Part shown: in pieces, positions 8,263 through 25,090 of the stretch
Numbering within the stretch: position 1 is the stretch's first letter
How the letters are laid out: every line of letters begins with the position of its first letter
Assembly: GCA_947447265.1 (NCBI GenBank)
Contig: CANFKC010000002.1
Span: 124,001-188,000, forward strand
Direction: 5' to 3'
Length of the DNA stretch: 64,000 nt
Source: Chitinophagaceae bacterium
GTDB taxonomy: Bacteria > Bacteroidota > Bacteroidia > Chitinophagales > Chitinophagaceae
Position numbers and translations under genes: made by a program
Notes under the pieces: generated by a model
What the model was told of the DNA's origin: nothing
Seen by the model: the letters and a program-made list of their open reading frames with translations, nothing else
Databases searched by the model: none

Positions 8263-9303
8263 CTAGTAAAGCTTAGGGCAAGACCAGTTGTAATTTGGCA
8301 TTCTTTCGTGTTTGTTGATGCGGCCAAAGAACAACAGAGAAATTTCGTAAGCACCTAAACCACGTGTTGCAGGGGTAAAGGTAGAAACGTTCACGTCATA
8401 AGAAAGACCGATACGCATCTTAGACCATTCAATAGCTACATAAGGCGCCAATGCGTCATTATTACGATACCAGCTACCTAAGTAAAGAACTGTGTTCTTT
8501 TGGTATTCAAGATCGTGACCCGGGTTCATGATGAAACCAACAGCAGCGCCTACAACAAATTCTGTTGCGGCAGCCTGAGTCTGGTACAAACCACTTGCAT
8601 AAAGTACCGTGTTTTCGTTCAGGTCAAAAGAACCGCCAAGGTAGCCTGTAGTACGGGCATGTATCTGGTGGTTATCGTTCAGGAAGCTTTCAACCGGCTG
8701 TGTAAGGTGGTAGTAAGAAAGGCCTGCGTAAGCGGTAGCATGTTCGCTTATCTGGCCGGTATACATGATACCAACGTTGAAGTCGGGATAAGAAAGATCG
8801 GCATTATTGAACACTTCGTGCGTAGGATAGCTGGTATGGCCTGTTGCGCCGTCAAATTCATCTTCAAAGTGCAATGCTGCGAAATCAAGGTGCTTTTGTA
8901 CGAGATAGCCCTGGAAACCTACTGAAATATGCTGTAATTTTTCCCTTCCGAAACCTTTATGGTAAGCAAGTGATAATGCAGCCGTAGTGTTGGTAAGGCC
9001 ACCTGAACCAGATTTATCATAAAGCAACATCATACCGATACCTAACGCATCGCCTTCAGCCAGTTTGCCCTTTAGCATAGCCATATCGTAAGACACAGTA
9101 CCGGTAACATATGGGTTGCTGGATACAGAAGCCCACTGTGTACGGAAGTTGGATGCAAAGCGCAAATCGTCGGGTACAAGCCCTGTTAACGCAGGGTTTA
9201 GCGTAAGTGGTGATGTGAAATATTGGGAAAAGTGGACATCCTGTGCTAATGCAGAACCTGCAAGCATTAAAGACACACCTAACCCTAGTAATGATTTTCT
9301 CAT
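8263..9303 (-). CDS. PorP/SprF family type IX secretion membrane protein (copy 1)
   Basis: Outer-membrane beta-barrel of the PorP/SprF family, which works with the T9SS and, in gliding species, in delivery of the adhesin SprB. The start is placed at the ATG giving MRKSLLGLGVSLML, a clean signal peptide ending ALAQ, rather than nine codons upstream. The family hallmark DVHFSQYFTSPLTLNPALTG follows the signal peptide, and the C-terminus ends in a short strand with NYNWSCPKLY. Length about 346 aa is normal. It is a tandem paralogue of the next gene with the same orientation, each copy having its own terminator. Such genes often sit beside long repetitive adhesins, but none is visible here. Confidence 0.9.
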   Translation of the reverse strand: MRKSLLGLGVSLMLAGSALAQDVHFSQYFTSPLTLNPALTGLVPDDLRFASNFRTQWASVSSNPYVTGTVSYDMAMLKGKLAEGDALGIGMMLLYDKSGSGGLTNTTAALSLAYHKGFGREKLQHISVGFQGYLVQKHLDFAALHFEDEFDGATGHTSYPTHEVFNNADLSYPDFNVGIMYTGQISEHATAYAGLSYYHLTQPVESFLNDNHQIHARTTGYLGGSFDLNENTVLYASGLYQTQAAATEFVVGAAVGFIMNPGHDLEYQKNTVLYLGSWYRNNDALAPYVAIEWSKMRIGLSYDVNVSTFTPATRGLGAYEISLLFFGRINKHERMPNYNWSCPKLY

Positions 9304-9455
9304 TGTATGGATTTTATTGCGAAAGGTCAATTCAGAAGCAAATTAAGCTAAATATTCATTATAGACAAGACATACCTAAAAATCTTTTAGTTGGGTAAAG
9401 GGCATTAATACCTGCTGGCTTTATGATATTGCTAACAATTATAAGGCGTAAAACA

Positions 9456-9549: not shown

Positions 9550-10593
9550 CTAGTAAAGCTTAGGGCAAGACCAGTTATAAGTAGGCATTCTTTCGTTCCT
9601 GTTAATGCGGCCAAAGAAAATAGCAGAAAGCTCATATGCGCCATTGCTATTTGTAGCCGGGTTGAATTTTGAAGTGTTCACATCATAACTCAGACCAATA
9701 CGCATTTTAGACCATTCAATAGCTACATAAGGTGCAATCGCATCCTGATAACGATACCAGCCACCCAGGTAGAAGATAGTATTACGCTGGTAGTCAAGAT
9801 CGTGGCCTTCGTTCATTACAAAACCAATTGACGCACCAACCAAAACTTCTGTTGCGCTCGCCTGAGTCTGGTAAAGACCACTGGCATACAGTACAGTCTT
9901 ATCATTCAGATCGAAGCTACCACCCAGGTAACCTGTAGTACGGGCGTGTATCTTGTGTTGGTCGTTCAAAAAGGTTTCCACTGGTTGTGTAAGGTGGTAG
10001 TAAGAAAGCCCCATATAAGTAGTGGCATGTTCTCCTATTCTTCCGGTCCACATTGCACCCACGTTAAAATCAGGGTAGGTAAGGTCTGCATTCGTAAATA
10101 CTTCGCCTGTCCCGGTTTTTGAAGGATCGGATGAAGGGGTAGGGTATTGATCTTCAAACGTCATTGCTGCAAAATTCAGGTTCTTCTGAACTAAATAACC
10201 TTGAACACCAATAGAAAAATGCTGTAGTTTATCGCGGCCAAAAGCTTTGTGATAAGCGAGAGAGCCACCCATAGTAATATTCTGCAAGCCACCAGAGCCC
10301 GATTTGTCATACAGACCCACAACGCCCAAACCTATTGCGTCACCTTCAGGAAGTTTTCCTTTCAGGATGGACATATCATAAGACATGGTTGCGGTAGTAT
10401 AGGGGTGGTTAGAAACTGACGACCATTGTGAACGATAGTTGGCAGCAAAACGAAAATCATCAGGCACTAAACCTGTTTGGGCTGGATTGAGGGTAAGTGG
10501 AGACGTAAAATATTGGGTAAAATGCACATCCTGAGCATAGCTGGATGCGGCCAATAATAACGACGCTCCTAATCCAAGTAAAGACTTTTTCAT
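9550..10593 (-). CDS. PorP/SprF family type IX secretion membrane protein (copy 2)
   Basis: Same family and architecture as the adjacent copy: start at MKKSLLGLGASLLL, signal peptide ending SYAQ, hallmark DVHFTQYFTSPLTLNPAQTG, and the identical terminal NWSCPKLY. The two proteins share long identical stretches along their whole length (for example YHLTQPVE.FLND, IHARTTGYLGGSFDLN, KMRIGLSYDVN), which indicates tandem duplication followed by modest divergence mostly in predicted loops such as the one after FEDQYPTPSSDPS. About 347 aa. Confidence 0.9.
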   Translation of the reverse strand: MKKSLLGLGASLLLAASSYAQDVHFTQYFTSPLTLNPAQTGLVPDDFRFAANYRSQWSSVSNHPYTTATMSYDMSILKGKLPEGDAIGLGVVGLYDKSGSGGLQNITMGGSLAYHKAFGRDKLQHFSIGVQGYLVQKNLNFAAMTFEDQYPTPSSDPSKTGTGEVFTNADLTYPDFNVGAMWTGRIGEHATTYMGLSYYHLTQPVETFLNDQHKIHARTTGYLGGSFDLNDKTVLYASGLYQTQASATEVLVGASIGFVMNEGHDLDYQRNTIFYLGGWYRYQDAIAPYVAIEWSKMRIGLSYDVNTSKFNPATNSNGAYELSAIFFGRINRNERMPTYNWSCPKLY

Positions 10594-10791
10594 GCGAATT
10601 CGTTTGTTTCTAGTTGACAATCAGCGTTTTATGTAAAATTTACAAAATCACTTCAGGGCGAAAACCCCTTTACTTTCGTTGTTTTTAGTATGTAAATTTA
10701 ACGTATTTTAGCTAGAGAGCTGCAACTTACAGAATTTTCTTTAACTAAAAGACTAACTATTAAGACATACCATTAAATAAATGAGTTGGGT

Positions 10792-11809: not shown

Positions 11810-13150
11810 TTGAAACACTGCGTTTACCACGCCACATACAATTCCTTTAAGCGCATCAGGCTCCTGCTATGTGTTTTACTGTTATCTCCTTTGGCATCGG
11901 CTTATGCACAGCAAGTGTTCAAAGGTGTCCTGTTGAATACTACAGATTCTCTGCCGTTGCAATTTGCCCATATCGAATTGAAAGAAACCAGGCAGCAGGT
12001 CCTGACAGACTCAGCAGGTAGATTTAATTTGAACACACCTCCCGGCACAAAAAAGCTGGTGCTGAATGTTACGTCGGTTGCATGCAAGGGTACGGTTATA
12101 TTTTACCCCGCCTTTTCAGGAACCGAACACGTTTTTATTGATGTGATTGCCAATCCGCTGACAGAATTTGTTTTTAAGGGGCTATCTGCACGTCAGGTAC
12201 TGGAGAAGGCGGTGGCGAGAATACCTGAGAATTACGATACCCGCAGCCATTTTGCATTTGCTTTTTACCGCGATTACGAAAAGGTAAATGGCTTGTTTCT
12301 GAATTTTACGGAAGCCCAAATAGCGATTATGTTCAAATTGGCGATGAATAAAAACAAAGTGACGCATAATAATGCCTATGCCGTGCAACAGTTGAGGCGC
12401 AGTAAGGCGGTTACCATTATCAGCGATATGACCGAGAGCACTATGGATGAAGTTTTAAAAGAAGACCCCATATACAATCTTACGGCAAGTTCGCTGAACC
12501 CCGACCGGTTTGGTGATTACAGGATCAGGTTTGATACCACCCAGAAGACCGACGACTACATAGTTACTTACTACCGCTACGATTTTAGTAGCGAAGACCA
12601 CGGCTGTGGCTTTCACGATTACAACATCTTCTGGGGTGAAGAGACGGAGAGAGGTACAGTAGTTATTGAGCGGGGCACATTTGCCATAAAGAAATATACC
12701 CGAAATGCAATGATAAACCCCAGGTATGATTACGGACCACTGGGGTCGCAGATCAATATTATATACCCGTCAAAAAAGTATTTCTTCCGTTTTGTTGATG
12801 GCGACCTGACCGCGGAATATGCGCCGGTAGATGGCAAATGGTATCTCAAAAACCTGATGCACAAGTTCACCAACGATTTTTTCTACTGCGGATTCGGTTC
12901 GCTGGCTTACCGAATGACGGAATACAGCGAAATATGTTTCGATTCTGTTTCGCGCTATGTGGGGGAGGATATTGTAAACAAATTTTACCCGAATACTTTT
13001 TTCATGCGCAGGAAGTATGATTACGACAAAAACTATTGGGATAAAGAAGTCCATCCTTATTTTTTTGAAGCCCGTGATTCTGTGCTCACACACCTCCAGA
13101 AATTGGGGCCAATAGAAGCGCAGTTTATAGCTGAGGGTAAGAAGGAGTAG
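11810..13150 (+). CDS. Secreted carboxypeptidase-regulatory-like domain protein
   Basis: 446 residues. A hydrophobic signal segment (about 17-33) ends SAYAQQ. Residues 36-125 form a CarboxypepD_reg-like beta-sandwich (VFKGVLLNTTDSLPLQFAHIELKETRQQVLTDSAGRFNL), common at the start of Bacteroidota outer-membrane proteins. The remaining 300 residues show no motif I can name, though HFAFAFYRDYEKVNG is a recurring feature of DUF5686/CarboxypepD_reg-like periplasmic proteins. There is no TonB plug or barrel, so it is not a receptor. The start is uncertain: TTG at 11810 is the first usable codon after an in-frame stop at 11762 and no ATG lies before the signal segment. Confidence 0.7.
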   Translation: MKHCVYHATYNSFKRIRLLLCVLLLSPLASAYAQQVFKGVLLNTTDSLPLQFAHIELKETRQQVLTDSAGRFNLNTPPGTKKLVLNVTSVACKGTVIFYPAFSGTEHVFIDVIANPLTEFVFKGLSARQVLEKAVARIPENYDTRSHFAFAFYRDYEKVNGLFLNFTEAQIAIMFKLAMNKNKVTHNNAYAVQQLRRSKAVTIISDMTESTMDEVLKEDPIYNLTASSLNPDRFGDYRIRFDTTQKTDDYIVTYYRYDFSSEDHGCGFHDYNIFWGEETERGTVVIERGTFAIKKYTRNAMINPRYDYGPLGSQINIIYPSKKYFFRFVDGDLTAEYAPVDGKWYLKNLMHKFTNDFFYCGFGSLAYRMTEYSEICFDSVSRYVGEDIVNKFYPNTFFMRRKYDYDKNYWDKEVHPYFFEARDSVLTHLQKLGPIEAQFIAEGKKE

Positions 13151-13160
13151 ATGGTAAATA

Positions 13161-13865
13161 TTAAGCTACGAACATAATAACAAACGATACATTGTCAGTG
13201 AGTCGTTTTGTCGCCAGTAGTGCAACAAGCAGGGCACCGAATTCGGCAGCATCTCCAGCAATTGCCGAAATGCCGCTTAATTCAGTAGTGTTTATTATTT
13301 CGTGCACTCCATCAGTAGTGAGCAGCACCCGGTCGCCGGGCTGCAGAGCAAAATTATCTGTTTGTATAATCGGGTCTTCATATATTCCAAGGCCGCTCAA
13401 TATCACATTCCGGCGCGGATAGAGTGCGGCCTCTTGTTCCCTGAGCTGCCCGGTACGCAGCAGGTATTCCACCTCGGTATGATTATCTGATAATTGCATT
13501 ACTTCTTGCTGCCGTATTACGCATAACCTGCTGTCGCCTGCATGGGCAAAATGCAATACATTATCTTTTATGGTACAGCCGGTAAAAGTAGTGCACATAC
13601 CTACATACTGGGGAAAGAGGATATGTGCTTCTAAGAGTTTTTTGTTGGCCACTTCAATGATTTGGCCAAGGTCTTCAGTGCCACCGGAAATCAGTTCAAC
13701 AAATGAGGTAATGCTGTGTTTCGAAGCTACCTCGCCAAAAGGGCAACCACCTACACCGTCAGCAACACAGGCAAAAAACAGGTTGGGGAAGGCAATCGAT
13801 TCCACACTATCCTGGTTATTCTGCCGGGGGCCTTTGTCGGTGTATTTAAAGTGGTCTGTTATCAT
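13161..13865 (-). CDS. PP2C-family serine/threonine phosphatase
   Basis: A stand-alone PP2C (PPM) domain of 234 aa without membrane or sensor domains. Metal-binding and signature residues are visible: Asp19 (NNQDS), VADGVGG at 34-40 (Asp36), AGDSR at 109-113, TTDGV at 183-187 (Asp185) and TDN at 223-225 (Asp224). It should remove phosphate from Ser/Thr residues using two metal ions. It lies 79 bp downstream of the VWA gene on the same strand, so it may be the last gene of the SWIM/MoxR/VWA cassette and act as its switch. No Ser/Thr kinase gene is visible in the window to pair with it. Confidence 0.88.
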   Translation of the reverse strand: MITDHFKYTDKGPRQNNQDSVESIAFPNLFFACVADGVGGCPFGEVASKHSITSFVELISGGTEDLGQIIEVANKKLLEAHILFPQYVGMCTTFTGCTIKDNVLHFAHAGDSRLCVIRQQEVMQLSDNHTEVEYLLRTGQLREQEAALYPRRNVILSGLGIYEDPIIQTDNFALQPGDRVLLTTDGVHEIINTTELSGISAIAGDAAEFGALLVALLATKRLTDNVSFVIMFVA

Positions 13866-13944
13866 TGGTTGTTTTAGGCACGTCCACGCAAAGTGCAGAT
13901 TTATTTCTTGAAAGCAACGCTATTCGCTTGTAAAGTATATTTAA

Positions 13945-15084
13945 TTACTTTCTTATCGCAATATCTTCCCGTGCTGCCCACATATTTATATCCTGTTTAC
14001 TTATTGCATGCGCCATAAGGTCGGGGAATTTATCGGGTGTGCATGCGAAAACAGGCACGCCCAGGTCGGCAAAAAATTGTGCGTTATAGTGGTCGTATGA
14101 CGGCGCGCCGGAATCGTTGAGCGCCAGCAACACGATAAGCTGCACACCAGATGCAACTATTTCTTTAGCCTTGGTCCGCATGCCTGCCGGATTGCCACCT
14201 TCAAAAAGGTCAGTAATCAAAAGCATTATGGTTTCTGTAGGGCGCGTTATTACCTGTTTGCAATAGGTGAGTGCGGCATGTATGTCAGTGCCACCTCCCA
14301 ACTGAACGCCGAACAGCAGGTCAACCGGGTCTTCCAGCTCTTCTGTCAGGTCGGCCACCGCTGTGTCAAATACGATCATTTTGGTGGTAACAGCAGGAAT
14401 TGATGCCATAACAGAACCAAAGATGCCGGAATAAACAACAGAATCGCCCATCGATCCGCTCTGGTCAAGACAGAGCAAAATATCTTTCAGCGAACTTCTT
14501 TTTTTGCCGAAACCTACCCTTGTTTCCGGTACTATGGTTTTATATTCCGGTTGGTAGTGTTTCAGGTTTTTGAGTATGGTGGTGTGCCAGTTTATTTCGT
14601 TATGCCGTGGGCGCATATTTCGGGCGCTCCGGTTAAGACTGCCGGTAATAGCGGTGGTCATGGGCTGAGCCAGCTTTTTGAGCAGGTCATCCACTACCTT
14701 TTTTACAACCTGCCGCGCGGTATCCTTCGTTTTGTCCGGTATTACTTTACTTAGGGTCATCAGCGTAGCTACAAGATGCACGTCGGCCTCGATGGTGGCT
14801 AGCGTTTCTTTTTCCAGCAACATCTGGGTCAGGTTCAGGCGTTTCAGCGCATCTTGCTGCATCAGTTGCACAACGCTTCCTGGAAAAAATGTACGGATAT
14901 CGCCAAGCCACCTGCTCACGTTGGGAGAAGATGGCCCCAGGCCTCCTTTTTTATCGCTGTCATACAGCGCCTCTAATGTCTTGTCTATCTGGGTATCCAT
15001 TTTGTCTAATGAATAGCCGGTGCCGTCGTTTTGGTGGCCGCCAAGAATCATGCGCCATTTACGCAAATTATCTTCTGGGTTCAT
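13945..15084 (-). CDS. VWA-domain protein of the SWIM/MoxR cassette
   Basis: 379 residues: an alpha-helical N-terminal half (1-195) and a C-terminal von Willebrand factor A domain (about 200-365). The MIDAS metal site is complete: D207-Q-S209-G-S211, Thr266 in GGGTDIH and Asp292 in TDLFEGG. Such CoxE-like VWA proteins act as partners or substrate adaptors of MoxR AAA+ ATPases. The start codon overlaps the stop of the DUF5682 gene by four bases (ATGA), which ties it to the cassette. Confidence 0.88.
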   Translation of the reverse strand: MNPEDNLRKWRMILGGHQNDGTGYSLDKMDTQIDKTLEALYDSDKKGGLGPSSPNVSRWLGDIRTFFPGSVVQLMQQDALKRLNLTQMLLEKETLATIEADVHLVATLMTLSKVIPDKTKDTARQVVKKVVDDLLKKLAQPMTTAITGSLNRSARNMRPRHNEINWHTTILKNLKHYQPEYKTIVPETRVGFGKKRSSLKDILLCLDQSGSMGDSVVYSGIFGSVMASIPAVTTKMIVFDTAVADLTEELEDPVDLLFGVQLGGGTDIHAALTYCKQVITRPTETIMLLITDLFEGGNPAGMRTKAKEIVASGVQLIVLLALNDSGAPSYDHYNAQFFADLGVPVFACTPDKFPDLMAHAISKQDINMWAAREDIAIRK

Positions 15085-17384
15085 GCTGATTCAAGTTTTA
15101 CGCCCAATAATTTTGTTACAACCGGCAAGCCCCTTTTTGCGCGCTCGTGGTTAAAATTGTCATGGCTGGTAACGGCAAATGTTGTGCGCTTTCCGCTGCT
15201 TCCGTTTTTTGCTTTTTCGCCCAGTTTCCGCCTCTCGGAATTACTGAAGTTCGCGAACGTTCTGCGCAGCAATGGCAGTAAAATGGCAAAGGTCGGTTCG
15301 TCAATCGACGATACCCATGATTCCACCATACCCCATAATGCTTCATCGAGTAACAAGATGGTGCCACTGCCTTTTAAAAAGCCTTCGAGCCAGGATGCAA
15401 TGGTGCTGTGCGTATTACCAGCCGATAGCGCAAAGGTGAATTTATCGGCAAGTTCATCGCCGCTGAGCTGCTTATGATCGTACAACAACCGGGTAGCGTA
15501 ACCGGAAATAATAGCGGTAGTCGCATCGTTATTGGCGATGGTGTTTAGGGTTGCCTGCCATTCCTGTAACGTGCCGGCATCCTGCATCAGTTTGAGCGCA
15601 TCGTTCATGTTATTAATGGGCGTCACCAATTGCTCCGCCGCATCATCGTTAACACCCACGCAAGCCGGGGGGAGTGCGATGCAGATACGGGTTATCATAC
15701 TGTATGCTATACCTAATACTACTGATGTGTCAGTTTTACGCACATTGCCATAGCGGCCTATATTTACCAGTTGCGGTAATGCCTGCATCAATTGCAAAAC
15801 ATCGCCGGTCGAGGCCGCCATATTGCTGATGCCGTTAATGACCACATCAATAACGCCGGGTAGTTCTGCCCATATAGCCAGTTCCATCAAGGTCGTCAGT
15901 GCCTGCAAAGAATCTTGCTCACCAGCCTGCTTAAGCACAAATTGAGTGGTTGCCACTTCCACTGAATTGCCCCAGCTTCCTTTTTCAATAATATCCACTG
16001 AAAAAGCAGGATCCCACTGCAGGCGCCATGCTTCTTTAAACGTACCCTTGCTTGCCGACTCTAATTTCGTGCCCCAGTTAATGCCTAATAATAACAACCG
16101 GTTCAGGAAAATGCTGCGGTCGAGGTCGGTATCTTTTCTGAGGTCAAACTGATAATCTTTAAAGTCTGCTGTAGCTGGGAGCCTTAATTTTTTCTGGTTT
16201 TTTTCAATATCCAGTTGCAGCGGGGGCTTCGGTATATCTTCGGGAACGGAGCCGATGCGGTTACTCACTATCAGTTCGTCTTGTATAAGCTGCAGCAATA
16301 TGTCTTCGCCCATGCAAAGTACGCTGCGTGTAGCTTCATTCAGTTCTTCCAGTCCGGCCTTGGGTAGTTCCCGCATGGATGCCAAAGCGTTCGCCAATCG
16401 CACAGCATCTATTACATGGGCCACAGAAGTATCGATATTCTGTTCCCGGAAAAGTTTGGCTATACCTGCCATCCATCTCGTTCCGTCATCGCCTGGGTAA
16501 TTCCATACATGCTCATACCAGCCGGGCGAACCAATACCGGCGCCATAGCCGCTGAAATAACTTAGCCGGCTGTAGGTCCATGGCACCCAGGTGCACTCGA
16601 CTTTTACTTTTGGCAAACCTTTTAAAAGGTCGTTATCCTCTTTTTGCCTGGGCATGTTTTTTAGGGCGGGCACATGCCATGCGCCGCAAATAACAGCTAC
16701 CTCGCTGAACATCTCTTTTTCTGCCTGCCGGATGCTCTTGCGCATATATGCTTCGCGCAGCGCTTCGTGTCTGTCCTCCCGCTCCGGTATAGTGTCGCGC
16801 AGGCTTTGCATGGCTTCAGCTACAGCATCAAATACCGACTCATTATTATGGCGATGCTCAAAAAAGGTCTCCCACCATTTTTCTCCATCTGTATAACCTG
16901 CGGCTTCCGCCAGGTAAGTTGTCGGGTCACGGTAAACGTTTGGGGTTATTACCGCTACGTTTTCTTCTGCTACTTCCTTGTTGTCACTTTCTGTTGTTAC
17001 TTCAGTAACGGCTTGCTCCGCTGTTGCCTGCGCTTCTGCGTAGGCTTTTTCTGAACGTTCCTTTTTTAAAGCAAAGCTATGTGCTGCTGGAAGGTCCATA
17101 AAGCGGACGTGTATATTGTTGCGCTTCGCATAGAGTATGGCCTGCCACTCCGGTGAAAATTCCGCAAACGGGTAAAATACCGACTGCTGCGGGTCATCGC
17201 TCTGGTATAGCAATATAGCAACAGGCGGCTTCAGCTCTTCATGCGTTATCCATTGCAAAATGTGGTCTGCATCAGGCGGGCCTTCCACCAATATAAGGTC
17301 TGGCTTCAGGTTTTCCAGGAAGTCACGCACATTGCGCGCTGACCCGGGCCCATGATGCCTTATGCCGAGTAGGTGTGTGTTCAT
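15081..17384 (-). CDS. DUF5682 family protein
   Basis: 767-residue cytosolic protein of unknown function. The N-terminus reads GIRHHGPGSARN (7-18) and LILVEGPPDAD (30-40): a Gly-x-x-His-His-Gly-Pro motif followed by a strand ending in Glu34. This pattern resembles the His and Glu motifs of the EreA/ChaN/TraB-like superfamily, so a hydrolase-type active site is plausible but unproven. A second His motif is VICGAWHVPAL (about 230-240). The C-terminal half is helical and may be a scaffold. It overlaps both neighbours by 4 bp, so stoichiometric production with the ATPase and VWA protein is likely. Confidence 0.82.
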   Translation of the reverse strand: MNTHLLGIRHHGPGSARNVRDFLENLKPDLILVEGPPDADHILQWITHEELKPPVAILLYQSDDPQQSVFYPFAEFSPEWQAILYAKRNNIHVRFMDLPAAHSFALKKERSEKAYAEAQATAEQAVTEVTTESDNKEVAEENVAVITPNVYRDPTTYLAEAAGYTDGEKWWETFFEHRHNNESVFDAVAEAMQSLRDTIPEREDRHEALREAYMRKSIRQAEKEMFSEVAVICGAWHVPALKNMPRQKEDNDLLKGLPKVKVECTWVPWTYSRLSYFSGYGAGIGSPGWYEHVWNYPGDDGTRWMAGIAKLFREQNIDTSVAHVIDAVRLANALASMRELPKAGLEELNEATRSVLCMGEDILLQLIQDELIVSNRIGSVPEDIPKPPLQLDIEKNQKKLRLPATADFKDYQFDLRKDTDLDRSIFLNRLLLLGINWGTKLESASKGTFKEAWRLQWDPAFSVDIIEKGSWGNSVEVATTQFVLKQAGEQDSLQALTTLMELAIWAELPGVIDVVINGISNMAASTGDVLQLMQALPQLVNIGRYGNVRKTDTSVVLGIAYSMITRICIALPPACVGVNDDAAEQLVTPINNMNDALKLMQDAGTLQEWQATLNTIANNDATTAIISGYATRLLYDHKQLSGDELADKFTFALSAGNTHSTIASWLEGFLKGSGTILLLDEALWGMVESWVSSIDEPTFAILLPLLRRTFANFSNSERRKLGEKAKNGSSGKRTTFAVTSHDNFNHERAKRGLPVVTKLLGVKLESA

Positions 17385-18463
17385 GCGTTAAGGTCTCTGC
17401 AGGCTCTGTAAATATCTTTCCAGTCGTCACGGGTTTTTATTACGGTTTCCAGGTATTCCTGCCATACCAACTTATCCTGTACAGGGTCTTTAACAATGGC
17501 CCCTAGTATACCTGCTGACAGATCTGCCGCTGTTAACTGTCCATTGCCGAAATATGCAGCCATGGCCAGGCCGTTATTCATTACACTAATGGCCTCGGCG
17601 GTGCTCAGGCTTCCGCTGGGTGATTTTATTTTGGTCTTACCATCTGCCGTTGCACCGCTGCGCAGTTCCCTGAAAATAGTAACTATCCTACGTATCTCAT
17701 GCAATGCCGGCGCTTCAGCCGGGAGTTCCATTATTTTTTCAAAACTTGCTACACGCCTGCGTACGATATCAATTTCTTCTTCTATAGTATCTGGTACAGG
17801 CAATATAACTGTATTGAAGCGCCTTTTCAATGCGCTCGAAAGTTCGTTTACGCCTTTATCCCGGTTATTGGCGGTAGCTATAATATTGAACCCTTTTATT
17901 GCTTGCACTTCGGTATTCAGTTCCGGTATCGGCAACGATTTTTCTGAAAGTATGGTTATGAGGGTATCCTGCACATCTGCGCCTATCCTGGTCAGTTCTT
18001 CTATACGCGCAATTTTTCCGTCCTGCATGGCCCGCATAACCGGCGTTTCCACCAATGCTTTCGATGATGGACCTTCTGCGATCAGACGCGCATAATTCCA
18101 GCCATACCTTATCGATTCTTCGCTGGTGCCGGCAGTGCCTTGTATTACCAGTGTGGAGTCGCCACTGATTGCAGCCGCTAAATGTTCGCTAACCCAGCTT
18201 TTTGCTGTGCCCGGCAACCCATAGAGTAATAAGCCCCGGTCGGTAGTAAGCGTGGCAACCGCTATTTCCATAAGCCGCCTGCTACCAATGTATTTCGGGC
18301 TCACCTCAAAGCCATTCTTTAGTGTGCCACCTACCAGGTAGGTAACAACCGCTTGCGGAGAAAGCTTCCAGTTCGCAGGGCGTTTTTCAGAATCGCTTTT
18401 CGTCAATTCTTCCAGTTCCTGAGCAAATAGTTGTTCCGCGTGTTGACGTAATATCGTTGCCAT
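17381..18463 (-). CDS. MoxR-type AAA+ ATPase of the cassette
   Basis: 360 residues with one AAA+ domain. Walker A is GLPGTAKS (82-89). The Walker B position reads IARIEELTRIG (151-161), i.e. Glu-Glu where most MoxR proteins have Asp-Glu. Sensor 1 is IIATANNRDKG (194-204), and RRFN (214-217) holds the candidate arginine finger. ADVQDTLITILSEKSLPIPE (162-181) is the typical helix following Walker B. Proteins of this class form hexameric rings that remodel or activate partners, often with a VWA protein. It is separated from the upstream DUF5691 gene by 10 bp and overlaps the DUF5682 gene. Confidence 0.9.
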   Translation of the reverse strand: MATILRQHAEQLFAQELEELTKSDSEKRPANWKLSPQAVVTYLVGGTLKNGFEVSPKYIGSRRLMEIAVATLTTDRGLLLYGLPGTAKSWVSEHLAAAISGDSTLVIQGTAGTSEESIRYGWNYARLIAEGPSSKALVETPVMRAMQDGKIARIEELTRIGADVQDTLITILSEKSLPIPELNTEVQAIKGFNIIATANNRDKGVNELSSALKRRFNTVILPVPDTIEEEIDIVRRRVASFEKIMELPAEAPALHEIRRIVTIFRELRSGATADGKTKIKSPSGSLSTAEAISVMNNGLAMAAYFGNGQLTAADLSAGILGAIVKDPVQDKLVWQEYLETVIKTRDDWKDIYRACRDLNA

Positions 18464-18473
18464 AGTATAATGT

Positions 18474-19997
18474 TTATGCGAATGCGTTTAGTGTGTTTTG
18501 TTTAAGGCTATGAAGTTTAGTAATGTAGATAACGTGACTTGCCCACAAGGTCTTCAGGTAATTTTCTCCCGTCGGCATTCCCGGCAATTCATCAAGTATG
18601 GCGCCGGGTATATGTATAACTATCTCTTTTAAGAAGGGCTTGCCATATTGGTAAGGCTGCACTGCAGCCAGCCTAAGTATCATTCTTGCAAGTGGCACGC
18701 TCCATTTGGTTGTAAAAAGCACCGCATACGGAACTATTTTTTCTGCCGCCATCTTTTTTACCATTATCTCATCTTGAAGCTTTTCCGGCAACAGAGGTAG
18801 GGCAGCGGGGTTAAAATCGATGTCGGCGTTTGCCAATTCAATAGCCCATCGGGTATCTTTAAAGTTGGTGGCAGCCTTTAATAGGGCCGGCAGATATTTT
18901 TTACTGCTGTCGCTTTTACTGAAGTAATTAATTATCTCTCCTGGCGCAATGCCAAGGTGCGCCTCCCAGAAAGTCGGGGCAACCGCCGAGATTAATTGCA
19001 ATAGTGTAAATTCATTTTCAGTGAAATCACTGTCGCTGTATTGTTCTATGCCGGTTGTAAAAATATCATCGTCAAAATGATTGGGCAGCGCTATTTGAAG
19101 TACTGTTTTCTTACTAAGGCCCAGTAGTATTTTTTCCGTTTTAAGTTGCACAGTTGCTTGTAGCAGTTGCTGATAACGTTGCATTACCGCCGAGGAGGTA
19201 ATCCGTTTCAACAATTGTAAGGCAGTATCTTTTATTTTTTGGCTCTTATCATTAGCCAGAGTTTCCAACCAGTCTTTATCAGCGTCACTTATCTGCGCTT
19301 CCAAAAGTTTCAGTAAATCTACCTTGGTGTTTACATTCTCGGCTGCCCAGGTCTGCATTAACATGGTTCTGGCTTGTGCAGGGTCGGTTGCGCGCACCTG
19401 TTGCAGCGCTTCTTTACGTTCATCTGGTGTGCCGGTTTCCCATATTGATAAGGTGTCCTGATTGCCGTTGTCCGAATTTTCGCCCGTATCGTTTTTCGCC
19501 TCCGCAATAGTTTTTACATACTTCCATTTGCTATTCCATTCGCTCAGCCAAATACCGCGCTGGCCGCAGCAACGAACTATCAAGTCTCTAAGTTTTTTAT
19601 TTTCAGCTCCTTTATGAAGCAGTATAGGTATTAATTCCGGCGCTACGATAAGTCCTTTTTCTGAACAGCGCCGCAACCACAGGTTTAAAAGTTCTTTGGC
19701 GTCTTCGTCAATTATTTGTTGAAATACTTTTGTAGCGTGTTTATTGGTATAGGGTAGTGTTTCCTGCGCGGCAACAGTAATATTTATCGCTTCATCCTGG
19801 TAGGGCATAACCCCGCATTGCCGGTAGCTGTGAGCGATAGCCGCTGTTACCAGGAAACGTTCTTCTGCATCCTTTTGACGCGCGCTTAGTGTTGCCTCTG
19901 CAGCTTCAGCTATGGCTGGCGGCAGTTCTTCCGGGTTCAGTTGCTTTTTGTCTGTGCCCAGTAATGCTGTATTAACTATGTTATTCCAAAACTCCAT
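18474..19997 (-). CDS. DUF5691 family protein
   Basis: 507 residues, cytosolic, almost entirely alpha-helical by composition, with HEAT-like stretches (ERKEALQQVRATDPAQARTM; NDKSQKIKDTALQLLKRITS). The beginning (FWNNIVNTALLGTDKK) matches the DUF5691 start pattern as I remember it. No catalytic motif is seen, so a scaffold or adaptor role is likely. Its ATG shares one base with the stop of the SWIM gene (TAATG), showing tight translational coupling. Confidence 0.78.
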   Translation of the reverse strand: MEFWNNIVNTALLGTDKKQLNPEELPPAIAEAAEATLSARQKDAEERFLVTAAIAHSYRQCGVMPYQDEAINITVAAQETLPYTNKHATKVFQQIIDEDAKELLNLWLRRCSEKGLIVAPELIPILLHKGAENKKLRDLIVRCCGQRGIWLSEWNSKWKYVKTIAEAKNDTGENSDNGNQDTLSIWETGTPDERKEALQQVRATDPAQARTMLMQTWAAENVNTKVDLLKLLEAQISDADKDWLETLANDKSQKIKDTALQLLKRITSSAVMQRYQQLLQATVQLKTEKILLGLSKKTVLQIALPNHFDDDIFTTGIEQYSDSDFTENEFTLLQLISAVAPTFWEAHLGIAPGEIINYFSKSDSSKKYLPALLKAATNFKDTRWAIELANADIDFNPAALPLLPEKLQDEIMVKKMAAEKIVPYAVLFTTKWSVPLARMILRLAAVQPYQYGKPFLKEIVIHIPGAILDELPGMPTGENYLKTLWASHVIYITKLHSLKQNTLNAFA

Positions 19998-21295
19998 TAT
20001 AACGCTTTGTATTCATTGTTATGCCAAACGCCTACCGGCAGATACTTGTTTTCTTTACCCAATACCACCATCGGTAAATATTGCCCGCCACTAAGGGCCA
20101 GCATTTCATAGAGGTTGGCATTTTGCACCATTTGCATCATATTATTGTCGGCATCCTGCAGCCAACACTGCTCATTGTGGCTTACCGGCCTCAGTTGGTC
20201 TACCACAAAGGGTAATTCCGTAATGAACGGATTTTGTTCGTTACACGTTACCTGCGCTGCTATCACGGCCTCCCAGTTTTCGTAGCCGGAAATGGTTGTG
20301 CTTTGGCGCGTCGCAGTTTGTTCTTTTAACAACGCCCGCAATGGTAATGCGCTATTGTAAAATACAAGCTCCGCATCTATTACCGAGCCCGGTAATAGTG
20401 CAATTTCGCGCGACTGGCTATTCACGGTAAATTGCAGTATTAGCGCATATTGTCCTGTTTGCATTCCATAGAGCCAGAATTTTTCCACAGTTAGTCTGTC
20501 TTCCTCAGTTACCTGTCGCGCAATTACGCACCAGCTGTCTTTTATACCGGGTTGCGCTTTCAGTTCTGCTTGGCTTTGTGTGAAGCCTATTAGTGAGCGC
20601 AGTTCAACTTGCATTGCTGCCGGTTGTGCATCTATGTTTTTATAGCCTTCTATCAGAAGGTACATATTCAGTAGCCTATCCAGGAAAGTGTTTTGCCAGC
20701 CTTCTTTAAAATAAGGTATTTCGGCAAGTCCGTTCACCATACCTGCCAGCCCGGGTGCCTGTGCATCTACCATCCGCTTTGCCATGCCGTTCCAGAAGGC
20801 GAAAGGTTTTTCAGGTATATTCATTGCGCCATTCCGCACAATGTCTTTAATCCATAACAGCAATTCTTCAACTCCATCTTGTACTTTACTTATACGCGCT
20901 TGCTGCCTTTTTGCCTGGGCAACTTCATCAACAGGTTTAGTGGCTTTTTCTTCGGTCTTTTCTGCCTTTTCATTGCGTTTGCTCAGCCATTCGCTAACCC
21001 ATGCGGGTAATGCTTTACCTGAAAAATTGCCCGGGTCTTTGCTGTAAAAAAGAAGCAAGCCCACACCGTGCTTACAAGGGAATTTGCGGCTTGGGCACGA
21101 ACATTTGAACGCAATATTATTTAGGTCTACCTGGGTTTGATAGGGCTTGCTGCCACTGCCCTGGCATTCGCCCCAAACTGCCTCGTTATTGGTGCCAAAA
21201 CTTACCCAGTTGGCAGCGCCGGCCAGTCCCTTGCCTGATTTTCTGGAAGCATCATCTGGTGCCAGCGCTAAAATTTGTTCTTCGGTATAGTTCAA
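19997..21295 (-). CDS. SWIM zinc-finger protein, first gene of the MoxR/VWA cassette
   Basis: 432 residues. The N-terminal SWIM motif is complete: C65-S-C67 ... C74-K-H76 (CxCx6CxH), a zinc site thought to bind DNA or protein. Before it, an NWVSFGTNNEAVWGEC segment is typical of SWIM-family starts; a Lys/Glu-rich linker (about 108-130) follows. The rest is a mixed alpha/beta region without recognisable motif. As the promoter-proximal gene of five coupled genes, it may be the recognition or sensor component (inference). Confidence 0.87.
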   Translation of the reverse strand: MNYTEEQILALAPDDASRKSGKGLAGAANWVSFGTNNEAVWGECQGSGSKPYQTQVDLNNIAFKCSCPSRKFPCKHGVGLLLFYSKDPGNFSGKALPAWVSEWLSKRNEKAEKTEEKATKPVDEVAQAKRQQARISKVQDGVEELLLWIKDIVRNGAMNIPEKPFAFWNGMAKRMVDAQAPGLAGMVNGLAEIPYFKEGWQNTFLDRLLNMYLLIEGYKNIDAQPAAMQVELRSLIGFTQSQAELKAQPGIKDSWCVIARQVTEEDRLTVEKFWLYGMQTGQYALILQFTVNSQSREIALLPGSVIDAELVFYNSALPLRALLKEQTATRQSTTISGYENWEAVIAAQVTCNEQNPFITELPFVVDQLRPVSHNEQCWLQDADNNMMQMVQNANLYEMLALSGGQYLPMVVLGKENKYLPVGVWHNNEYKAL

Positions 21296-24904: not shown

Positions 24905-24979
24905 GGAAGCATAGCTCAGCTGGTTCAGAGCATCTGCCTTACAAGCAGAGGGTCCGCGGTTCGAACCCGTGTGCTTCCA
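24905..24979 (+). tRNA. tRNA-Val (anticodon TAC), copy 1
   Basis: Complete cloverleaf: acceptor stem GGAAGCA/TGCTTCC with discriminator A, D-arm GCTC...GAGC, anticodon stem TCTGC/GCAGA with loop CTTACAA (anticodon TAC), and T-arm CGCGG-TTCGAAC-CCGTG (one G-T pair). CCA is not fully encoded. A T run follows. Confidence 0.96.
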
Positions 24980-25014
24980 CTTTTTTTAAATTCATCCGAT
25001 AGAAATAAGTTATT

Positions 25015-25089
25015 GGAAGCATAGCTCAGCTGGTTCAGAGCATCTGCCTTACAAGCAGAGGGTCCGCGGTTCGAACCCGTGTGCTTCCA
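25015..25089 (+). tRNA. tRNA-Val (anticodon TAC), copy 2
   Basis: Identical in sequence to copy 1 and 35 bp downstream, so most likely co-transcribed from the same promoter. A strong terminator follows one base after it. Confidence 0.96.
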
Positions 25090-25090
25090 C

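Follow-up and report, generated by a model that had tools for sequence, protein, structure and literature searches.

Five minus-strand genes lie almost end to end in a stretch of 64,000 nucleotides (the window) from the genome of a Chitinophagaceae bacterium, and the question they raise is whether their products form one machine and what such a machine would do. The cassette begins with a gene for a SWIM-domain protein (19,997-21,295; 432 aa, TTG start; Pfam SWIM, 7e-5, 22.7 bits against a cut-off of 19.6), followed by genes for a DUF5691 protein (18,474-19,997; 507 aa; Pfam DUF5691, 8e-94), a MoxR AAA+ ATPase of the YehL subfamily (17,381-18,463; 360 aa; Pfam AAA_5, 5e-37), a DUF5682 protein homologous to YehM (15,081-17,384; 767 aa; Pfam DUF5682, 2e-271, over the full 727-position model), and a VWA_CoxE protein homologous to YehP (13,945-15,084; 379 aa; Pfam VWA_CoxE, 9e-43). 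A PP2C phosphatase gene on the same strand (13,161-13,865; 234 aa; Pfam PP2C_2, 2.5e-11) lies 79 bp downstream. Each of the six Pfam matches is above its family's cut-off. The open reading frame coordinates agree with the borders given in an earlier, sequence-only reading of this DNA: a 1-bp overlap at 19,997 between the SWIM and DUF5691 genes, a 10-bp gap (18,464-18,473) before the MoxR gene, and 4-bp overlaps on either side of the DUF5682 gene (17,381-17,384 and 15,081-15,084). That reading also held the key motifs to be intact, which their conservation bears out. The four ligands of the SWIM zinc motif (C65-x-C67-x6-C74-x-H76) are invariant in 50 homologues, the MoxR P-loop (GLPGTAKS, residues 82-89) has the usual MoxR form, and the MIDAS residues D207, S209, S211, and D292 of the VWA protein are invariant in 59 homologues, with T266 kept in 58. 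A search of positions 8-30 kb for Rfam RNAs returned two tRNAs and nothing else, and no Bacteroidota promoter pattern was found upstream of the cassette.

The full set of five genes, in unchanged order, is present at about 60 of the 80 related loci and in several phyla, an arrangement that is more than chance; homologues are clearly not mainly scattered. Among 80 genomes of the host-family genera, DUF5691 and intact DUF5682 are found in the same 10 and nowhere else (p = 6e-13), so that intact DUF5682 accompanies DUF5691 in 10/10 genomes, at a spacing of about 1.2 kb, compared with 0/70 genomes lacking DUF5691. Natural gene fusions join SWIM to DUF5691 (1009 aa, on a Hymenobacter plasmid) and DUF5682 to VWA (three Streptomyces proteins, ~1255 aa). 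These fusions argue for one complex and support contacts between SWIM and DUF5691 and between DUF5682 and VWA. At the level of sequence, DUF5682 has been inherited together with the MoxR ATPase and the VWA protein in several phyla, and DUF5691 and the SWIM zinc protein make up a second, tightly linked module. Distance-matrix correlations among the cassette proteins (0.76-0.94) were calculated without a species-tree control and therefore speak for co-inheritance, not contact. With fixed order, co-occurrence, and fusions together, the proposal that the five genes are one functional unit has held up, and their assembly into one machine is well supported. The distribution of the cassette is patchy (7/198 genomes of the phylum, 11/80 of the family), some copies are on plasmids, and solitary DUF5682 genes exist in some genomes.

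The PP2C gene does not belong to the conserved cassette and lies beside it incidentally. It adjoins the cassette in the window only, and in three other cassette genomes its homologue is on another contig. We therefore rejected PP2C as a component of the machine, and the role of switch once suggested for it is not supported. PP2C is not a conserved partner of the cassette.

The five-gene block is an ancient and widespread relative of the Escherichia coli yehL-yehM-yehP-yehQ operon. BLASTP aligned the window MoxR with YehL at 42% identity over 356 aa (E 2e-80 to 4e-80), DUF5682 with YehM at 27% (E 1e-36), and the VWA protein with YehP at 32% (E 4e-72). RavA (18%, E 0.011) and ViaA (22%, E 0.017) are much more distant, which places the window MoxR, as judged from sequence, in the YehL subfamily of MoxR and closer to YehL than to RavA. 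E. coli K-12 has two MoxR ATPases, of which YehL is one (PMC3893208). The three full-length homologues follow the same order in E. coli and in the window, and a SWIM gene (yehQ) is likewise part of the E. coli operon. However, E. coli has no DUF5691, and YehQ is longer, carries two SWIM motifs, and is encoded last in the operon; full-length homology between YehQ and the window SWIM protein was not detected (hhalign, 3.8%). The E. coli version is present in 5301/5426 genomes, where it is chromosomal and usually single-copy. The literature that we searched contained no functional study of yehL, yehM, yehP, or yehQ, and neither DUF5682 nor DUF5691 was named in any of its papers. It should be noted that both the yehLMPQ homologue and the DUF4132/WGR partner described below had been overlooked in the sequence-only reading.

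An AAA+ MoxR ring paired with a VWA adaptor is also found in NorQ-NorD, CoxD-CoxE, and RavA-ViaA, and the cassette VWA protein belongs to the Pfam family of CoxE. However, the sequence similarity of these pairs to the cassette pair is remote, and the cassette differs from them in having three extra conserved subunits and an operon without a client enzyme. The top PDB sequence match of the window MoxR is Midasin (7e-12), and its match to NorQ is at 4.5e-5. We propose that the VWA protein serves as an adaptor, linking the MoxR ring to DUF5682.

For the SWIM protein, the predicted model (pLDDT 91) comprises residues 1-113, which resemble ZSWIM8 (Z 9.3), a helical middle (98-246), and putative tandem OB folds in the C-terminal part (241-428). 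The model matches RPA70 (1jmc; Z 6.3, 166 residues) and several HIN domains (Z 5.0-5.6); the tandem-OB matches span ~150-166 residues, with low Z scores of about 5-7. Foldseek gave weak E-values and no significant match for either the SWIM or the DUF5682 model, and the fold readings of both come from a second look with VIA-align, the source of all Z scores given here. Given its predicted zinc region and tandem OB folds, the SWIM protein probably binds nucleic acid, or else a target that is itself bound to nucleic acid, in line with its earlier assignment as the recognition arm. DUF5691 had been put forward as a helical scaffold, and here the support was weak, with HEAT_2 matching at E 0.08 and the HEAT part of DUF4132 proteins at 43% probability in hhalign. 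An alpha-solenoid scaffold is probable; homology to the DUF4132 HEAT region was rejected on the weakness of that match.

The DUF5682 model (pLDDT 89) has an N-terminal alpha/beta domain (~1-270) and a C-terminal helical solenoid (~460-730). No sequence relatives of DUF5682 were found in the PDB. Its structural matches are chain DQ of 8b6h (Z 9.8, 179 residues, 4.3 A) and HopBA1 (5t09; Z 7.1, 138 residues). HopBA1 belongs to the TIKI superfamily (PMC6254334), and chain DQ is, we infer, the TraB-family subunit that the 8b6h paper includes among its listed folds (PMC10060162). Across 63 DUF5682 proteins, solitary copies included, residues R9, H10, E34, R210, E211, and H237 never vary; D97, G234, and A235 are also invariant, and H11 is nearly so. 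DUF5682 shares with the TIKI/TraB/EreA/ChaN superfamily an alpha/beta core, at a moderate match of the predicted fold, and the GxxH ... E ... GxxH signature; it differs in its long helical C-terminal half and its frequent association with MoxR-VWA. These features point to a helical solenoid that bears a TIKI/TraB/EreA-like domain, within which a His-Glu-His set is conserved, consistent with the EreA/ChaN/TraB kinship noticed earlier. The predicted domain and this set would therefore probably make DUF5682 a hydrolase, most likely a peptidase. Of the 2His/2Glu set of TIKI proteins, H10, E34, and H237 are conserved and the first Glu is out of register, and DUF5682 could therefore be inactive or have another chemistry.

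The commonest optional partner of the cassette is DUF4132/WGR (MolR). Proteins with DUF4132 and WGR domains belong to the DdrO regulon of Deinococcus and are induced by mitomycin C (PMC8533742), and molR is listed as LexA-regulated (PMC11039860, PMC3978071). These are the same families that recur beside the cassette, whereas the cassette itself is not reported in the DdrO regulon paper (PMC8533742). In E. coli, yehF/yehH/yehI form the molR region beside yehLMPQ, and a box-like sequence, CTGGATAAAATTACAG, adjoins yehF. No convincing SOS or DdrO box was found upstream of five-gene cassettes, and no DdrO-type box upstream of the D. taeanensis cassette. DUF4132 is present in 3/10 cassette genomes and 3/70 others (p 0.024), a modest excess that is gone in large genomes. 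Since DNA-damage repressors control DUF4132/WGR proteins in two lineages that are unrelated to each other, the cassette most likely works in a stress response, perhaps a genotoxic one. E. coli has DUF4132/WGR genes, whereas the window's genome has no DUF4132, so this setting rests on a partner that is absent from the organism itself.

Taken together, we tentatively favour a multi-subunit, ATP-driven remodelling or hydrolase machine that is recruited to nucleic-acid-bound targets, probably under stress. From its parts we infer how it would operate. The SWIM-DUF5691 arm would dock the machine on its target, and the MoxR ring would hold the VWA subunit in the way that NorQ holds NorD, NorQD being the precedent for a MoxR-VWA motor (PMC13036017). 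By pulling or twisting the VWA-DUF5682 arm, the ring would remodel the target or open the active site, and cleavage by DUF5682 would follow. In a more specific form, which we consider unlikely, the cassette is a new ATP-driven, nucleic-acid-tethered protease in which MoxR-VWA wields DUF5682 as a TIKI-family peptidase and SWIM-OB/DUF5691 recognises proteins bound to ssDNA or RNA.

A different use of the same parts, rather unlikely in our view, is that DUF5682 serves as a TIKI-like scaffold devoid of catalytic activity within a Midasin-like ATP-driven chaperone for a nucleoprotein complex. Midasin's place at the top of the MoxR matches fits this, as do TIKI proteins such as PMT that have neither the catalytic set nor activity (PMC6254334), the interaction of a molR deletion with lepA (PMC4245954), and the Tetrahymena match 8b6h, a structural subunit of complex IV. 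However, the invariance of H10, E34, and H237 even in solitary copies is hard to explain unless these residues have a catalytic or ligand role. It is likewise doubtful that MoxR-VWA works in the manner of NorQD or CoxDE and loads a client enzyme with a metal or cofactor, the client being possibly DUF5682 itself or molybdenum enzymes. The CoxE and NorQ matches point that way, NorQD inserts metal (PMC13036017), and molR, the neighbour of yehLMPQ, was described as essential for molybdate use in E. coli in a 1990 paper, as cited in PMC8533742. MoeA is present in 9/10 cassette genomes and 28/70 others (p 0.005), but this excess vanishes among genomes of at least 4.7 Mb (9/10 versus 14/22, p 0.21). 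The xanthine-dehydrogenase family is not associated with the cassette (6/10 versus 38/70) and is absent from the window's genome, no client enzyme recurs beside the cassette, and the SWIM-OB arm is left unexplained. A molybdenum-enzyme link was rejected, as MoCoBD_1 showed no association and genome size explains the MoeA excess.

A role in conflict, which the sequence-only reading had raised, now appears very unlikely. As in MoxR-vWA ternary systems, in which bpMoxR, VMAP, iSTAND, and FtsH occur and a MoxR-VWA core is joined by additional conserved components (PMC7159879), MoxR-VWA would set a threshold and DUF5682 would be the toxic anti-phage effector. The patchy spread and plasmid-borne copies are compatible with this, and defence-type matches occasionally adjoin some loci; some copies also have restriction genes and a PDDEXK nuclease in their vicinity. 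However, PADLOC gave no meaningful match to the five proteins (E 0.001 or weaker), and the window MoxR scored 20.2 bits against the bpMoxR cut-off of 27; the PP2C protein matched a candidate PADLOC model at 4e-7. No Pfam match to VMAP, iSTAND, beta-propeller, FtsH, or EADs was found in the cassette proteins. Near-universal presence in E. coli is unlike a typical defence island, no relative was found on viral contigs, and no variable effector recurs beside the cassette.

For the machine we favour, the anatomy of the cassette gives the orphan yeh operon specific tests that can be started in E. coli K-12. If the protease form is true, it would represent regulated proteolysis separate from ClpXP, Lon, and FtsH, acting in many phyla when cells face nucleoprotein or genotoxic stress, and E. 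coli YehLMPQ would be its DUF4132-type sister. If the broader reading is right, bacterial stress biology would gain a motor-driven hydrolase machine found in many phyla.

The five cassette genes lie on the minus strand and encode SWIM (19997-21295), DUF5691 (18474-19997), MoxR (17381-18463), DUF5682 (15081-17384), and VWA (13945-15084) proteins, each an ORF with a Pfam match above the cut-off. The coordinates and borders (a 1-bp overlap, a 10-bp gap, and two 4-bp overlaps) described in the sequence-only reading were reproduced exactly by our ORF calls. Its view that the SWIM zinc site and the VWA MIDAS are intact was also right: the zinc ligands did not vary across 50 aligned homologues, and the MIDAS residues were kept in 58-59 of 59. 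The nearest named relatives of the window were Chitinophaga and other Chitinophagaceae (Bacteroidota). Elsewhere in the window, a tandem pair of similar outer-membrane-type proteins (8263-9330 and 9550-10620) look like the PorP/SprF family, and two tandem tRNA-Val(TAC) genes (24905-24980 and 25015-25090) are spaced by 34 bp.

The five genes form a real unit, as had been proposed, and an ancient one. At least 570 DUF5682 relatives were detected when one genome was scanned for each species; among the best 80, which are the closest relatives and not a random sample, the order SWIM-DUF5691-MoxR-DUF5682-VWA was kept in ~60 loci and occurred in Bacteroidota, Cyanobacteria, Chloroflexi, Verrucomicrobia, and Proteobacteria. 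Many incomplete cassettes among these 80 lay at contig ends. In a less biased sample of 80 Chitinophagaceae genomes (one per genus), 10 contained an intact DUF5682, and DUF5691 was above the cut-off in the same 10 and no others (Fisher p = 6e-13), ~1.2 kb from DUF5682 in each. One further genome (G210), without DUF5691 above the cut-off, had a decayed DUF5682 with several in-frame stops (contig C46, 181864-183705; L103-L106), and the cassette is under loss in this lineage. Pairwise distance matrices of the five proteins, without a species-tree control, correlated at 0.76-0.94, which shows co-inheritance. Some DUF5682 genes were truly solitary, with unrelated neighbours and the same invariant residues (L011:8145-10370, L044:10001-12376, L046:6741-9074, L055:10001-12346, L066:9989-12247), and DUF5682 may function without the other members. 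Some Verrucomicrobia and Chloroflexi have additional genes inside the cassette, which encode a weak kinase-like protein (L061:7750-8547), an unassigned protein (L065:4079-4804), and a sensor kinase and response regulator (L087:8133-9854 and 12662-17344).

Among the YehL MoxR-VWA systems, the cassette represents a DUF5691-type variant; YehL itself defines one of seven MoxR subfamilies (PMC3893208). The MoxR, DUF5682, and VWA proteins matched E. coli K-12 YehL (42%, 4e-80), YehM (27%, 1e-36), and YehP (32%, 4e-72), respectively, in a common gene order, and sequence comparison placed MoxR and VWA distant from RavA and ViaA. Two layouts were distinguished: that of the window, SWIM-DUF5691-MoxR-DUF5682-VWA, and that of E. 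coli, which has DUF4132/WGR with MoxR-DUF5682-VWA-SWIM and lacks DUF5691. Iodobacter and Allorhizobium also have the latter layout, and Streptomyces has a variant of it. DUF4132 was the only flanking family recurring beyond ordinary local synteny (12 loci, E. coli included), on the same strand and in many loci directly behind VWA; it is absent from the window's genome. In a Streptomyces locus, a 1639-aa protein without Pfam match (L113:3735-8654) lies between DUF4132 and MoxR and may functionally replace either DUF5691 or the part of DUF4132 that is missing. A conjugative IncF plasmid with CTX-M-15 (NZ_CP103756.1) carries the E. coli chromosomal block yehI-yehLMPQ-yehR-btsSR-mlrA flanked by two IS26 copies (L112:2673-23411), apparently chromosomal DNA captured by IS26.

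The suggestion of a conflict system was not supported. The yeh operon is core in E. coli, with a match in 5301 of 5426 genomes, chromosomal except in two places, PADLOC gave no meaningful match for the cassette proteins, and no viral relative of the cassette was found, which together argue against defence. MT835988.1 (L116), an unverified human-faecal entry of 14 kb labelled 'bacteriophage', contains MoxR-DUF5682-VWA; it is probably mislabelled or a bacterial contig. Although core, the yeh operon can be dispensed with, having been deleted in DGF-298 (PMC10652928). The PP2C gene (13161-13865, minus strand, 79 bp behind VWA), previously cast as the switch, is of the Stp1/IreP type (NCBIfam 149 bits, below the 230-bit equivalog cut-off). 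It adjoins the cassette only in the window's genome, one of the ten family cassette genomes, three of which have a homologue on another contig; the nearest family homologues share only 28-36% identity with it and are not linked to the cassette. A profile built from it found no relative near any other cassette, and PP2C was judged an incidental neighbour and not a component. A molybdenum role was examined by co-occurrence: the xanthine-dehydrogenase family showed no association, and genome size accounted for an apparent excess of MoeA in cassette genomes.

DUF4132/WGR genes are under DNA-damage repressors in two independent literatures. DRA0166 (DUF4132) and DR2173 (WGR) of D. radiodurans are upregulated with mitomycin C in an IrrE- and DdrO-dependent manner (PMC8533742), and the molR region of E. 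coli, located upstream of yehL, is given as LexA-regulated (PMC11039860, PMC3978071); our sequence search found a near-consensus box beside yehF. No box of this type was found upstream of the five-gene cassettes, so their link to DNA damage is indirect.

The confident model predicted for DUF5682 (pLDDT 89) combines an alpha/beta domain at the N-terminus with a helical solenoid at the C-terminus. Residues R9, H10, E34, R210, E211, G234, A235, and H237 were invariant in 63 sequences and fit the GxxH ... E ... GxxH pattern of the TIKI/TraB-type superfamily, although one Glu of the 2His/2Glu set of TIKI proteins is out of register. The N-terminal part of the model matched the Tetrahymena complex IV subunit 8b6h_DQ (Z 9.8, 179 residues, 4.3 A) and HopBA1 (Z 7.1, 138 residues). 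The Tetrahymena complex includes a TraB-family subunit (PMC10060162), which we infer from the fold to be chain DQ, and HopBA1 belongs to the TIKI superfamily (PMC6254334). In the SWIM-protein model, also predicted with confidence (pLDDT 91), residues 1-113 matched ZSWIM8 (Z 9.3) and residues 241-428 matched the tandem OB folds of RPA70 (Z 6.3, 166 residues) as well as HIN domains, while SSB and telomere-binding proteins matched single folds. These putative OB-fold matches have modest Z scores, yet many unrelated nucleic-acid binders agree. SWIM and DUF5691 occur in one ORF (1009 aa) in Hymenobacter sp. HDW8; in H. radiodurans, a near-identical plasmid shows several broken frames in the same region, so one of these two versions may contain sequencing errors. 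DUF5682 and VWA are joined in one ORF in three Streptomyces, the third judged from ORF length and position only.

VWA adaptors are what MoxR rings act on: in NorQD, the VWA domain inserts a finger into the pore of the ring, and a linker is remodelled by the motor (PMC13036017). The earlier cast of recognition arm, scaffold, motor, and hydrolase-like effector was largely reasonable, apart from the PP2C switch and the conflict framing. Homology identifies the parts, gene fusions indicate SWIM-DUF5691 and DUF5682-VWA contacts, and the DUF5682 and SWIM-protein folds are predictions. In the simplest machine, the VWA adaptor would be linked to the hydrolase-like DUF5682, and a separate zinc/OB arm (SWIM) to the DUF5691 scaffold; the arm would locate a target, the MoxR motor would pull, and the DUF5682 hydrolase would then act.
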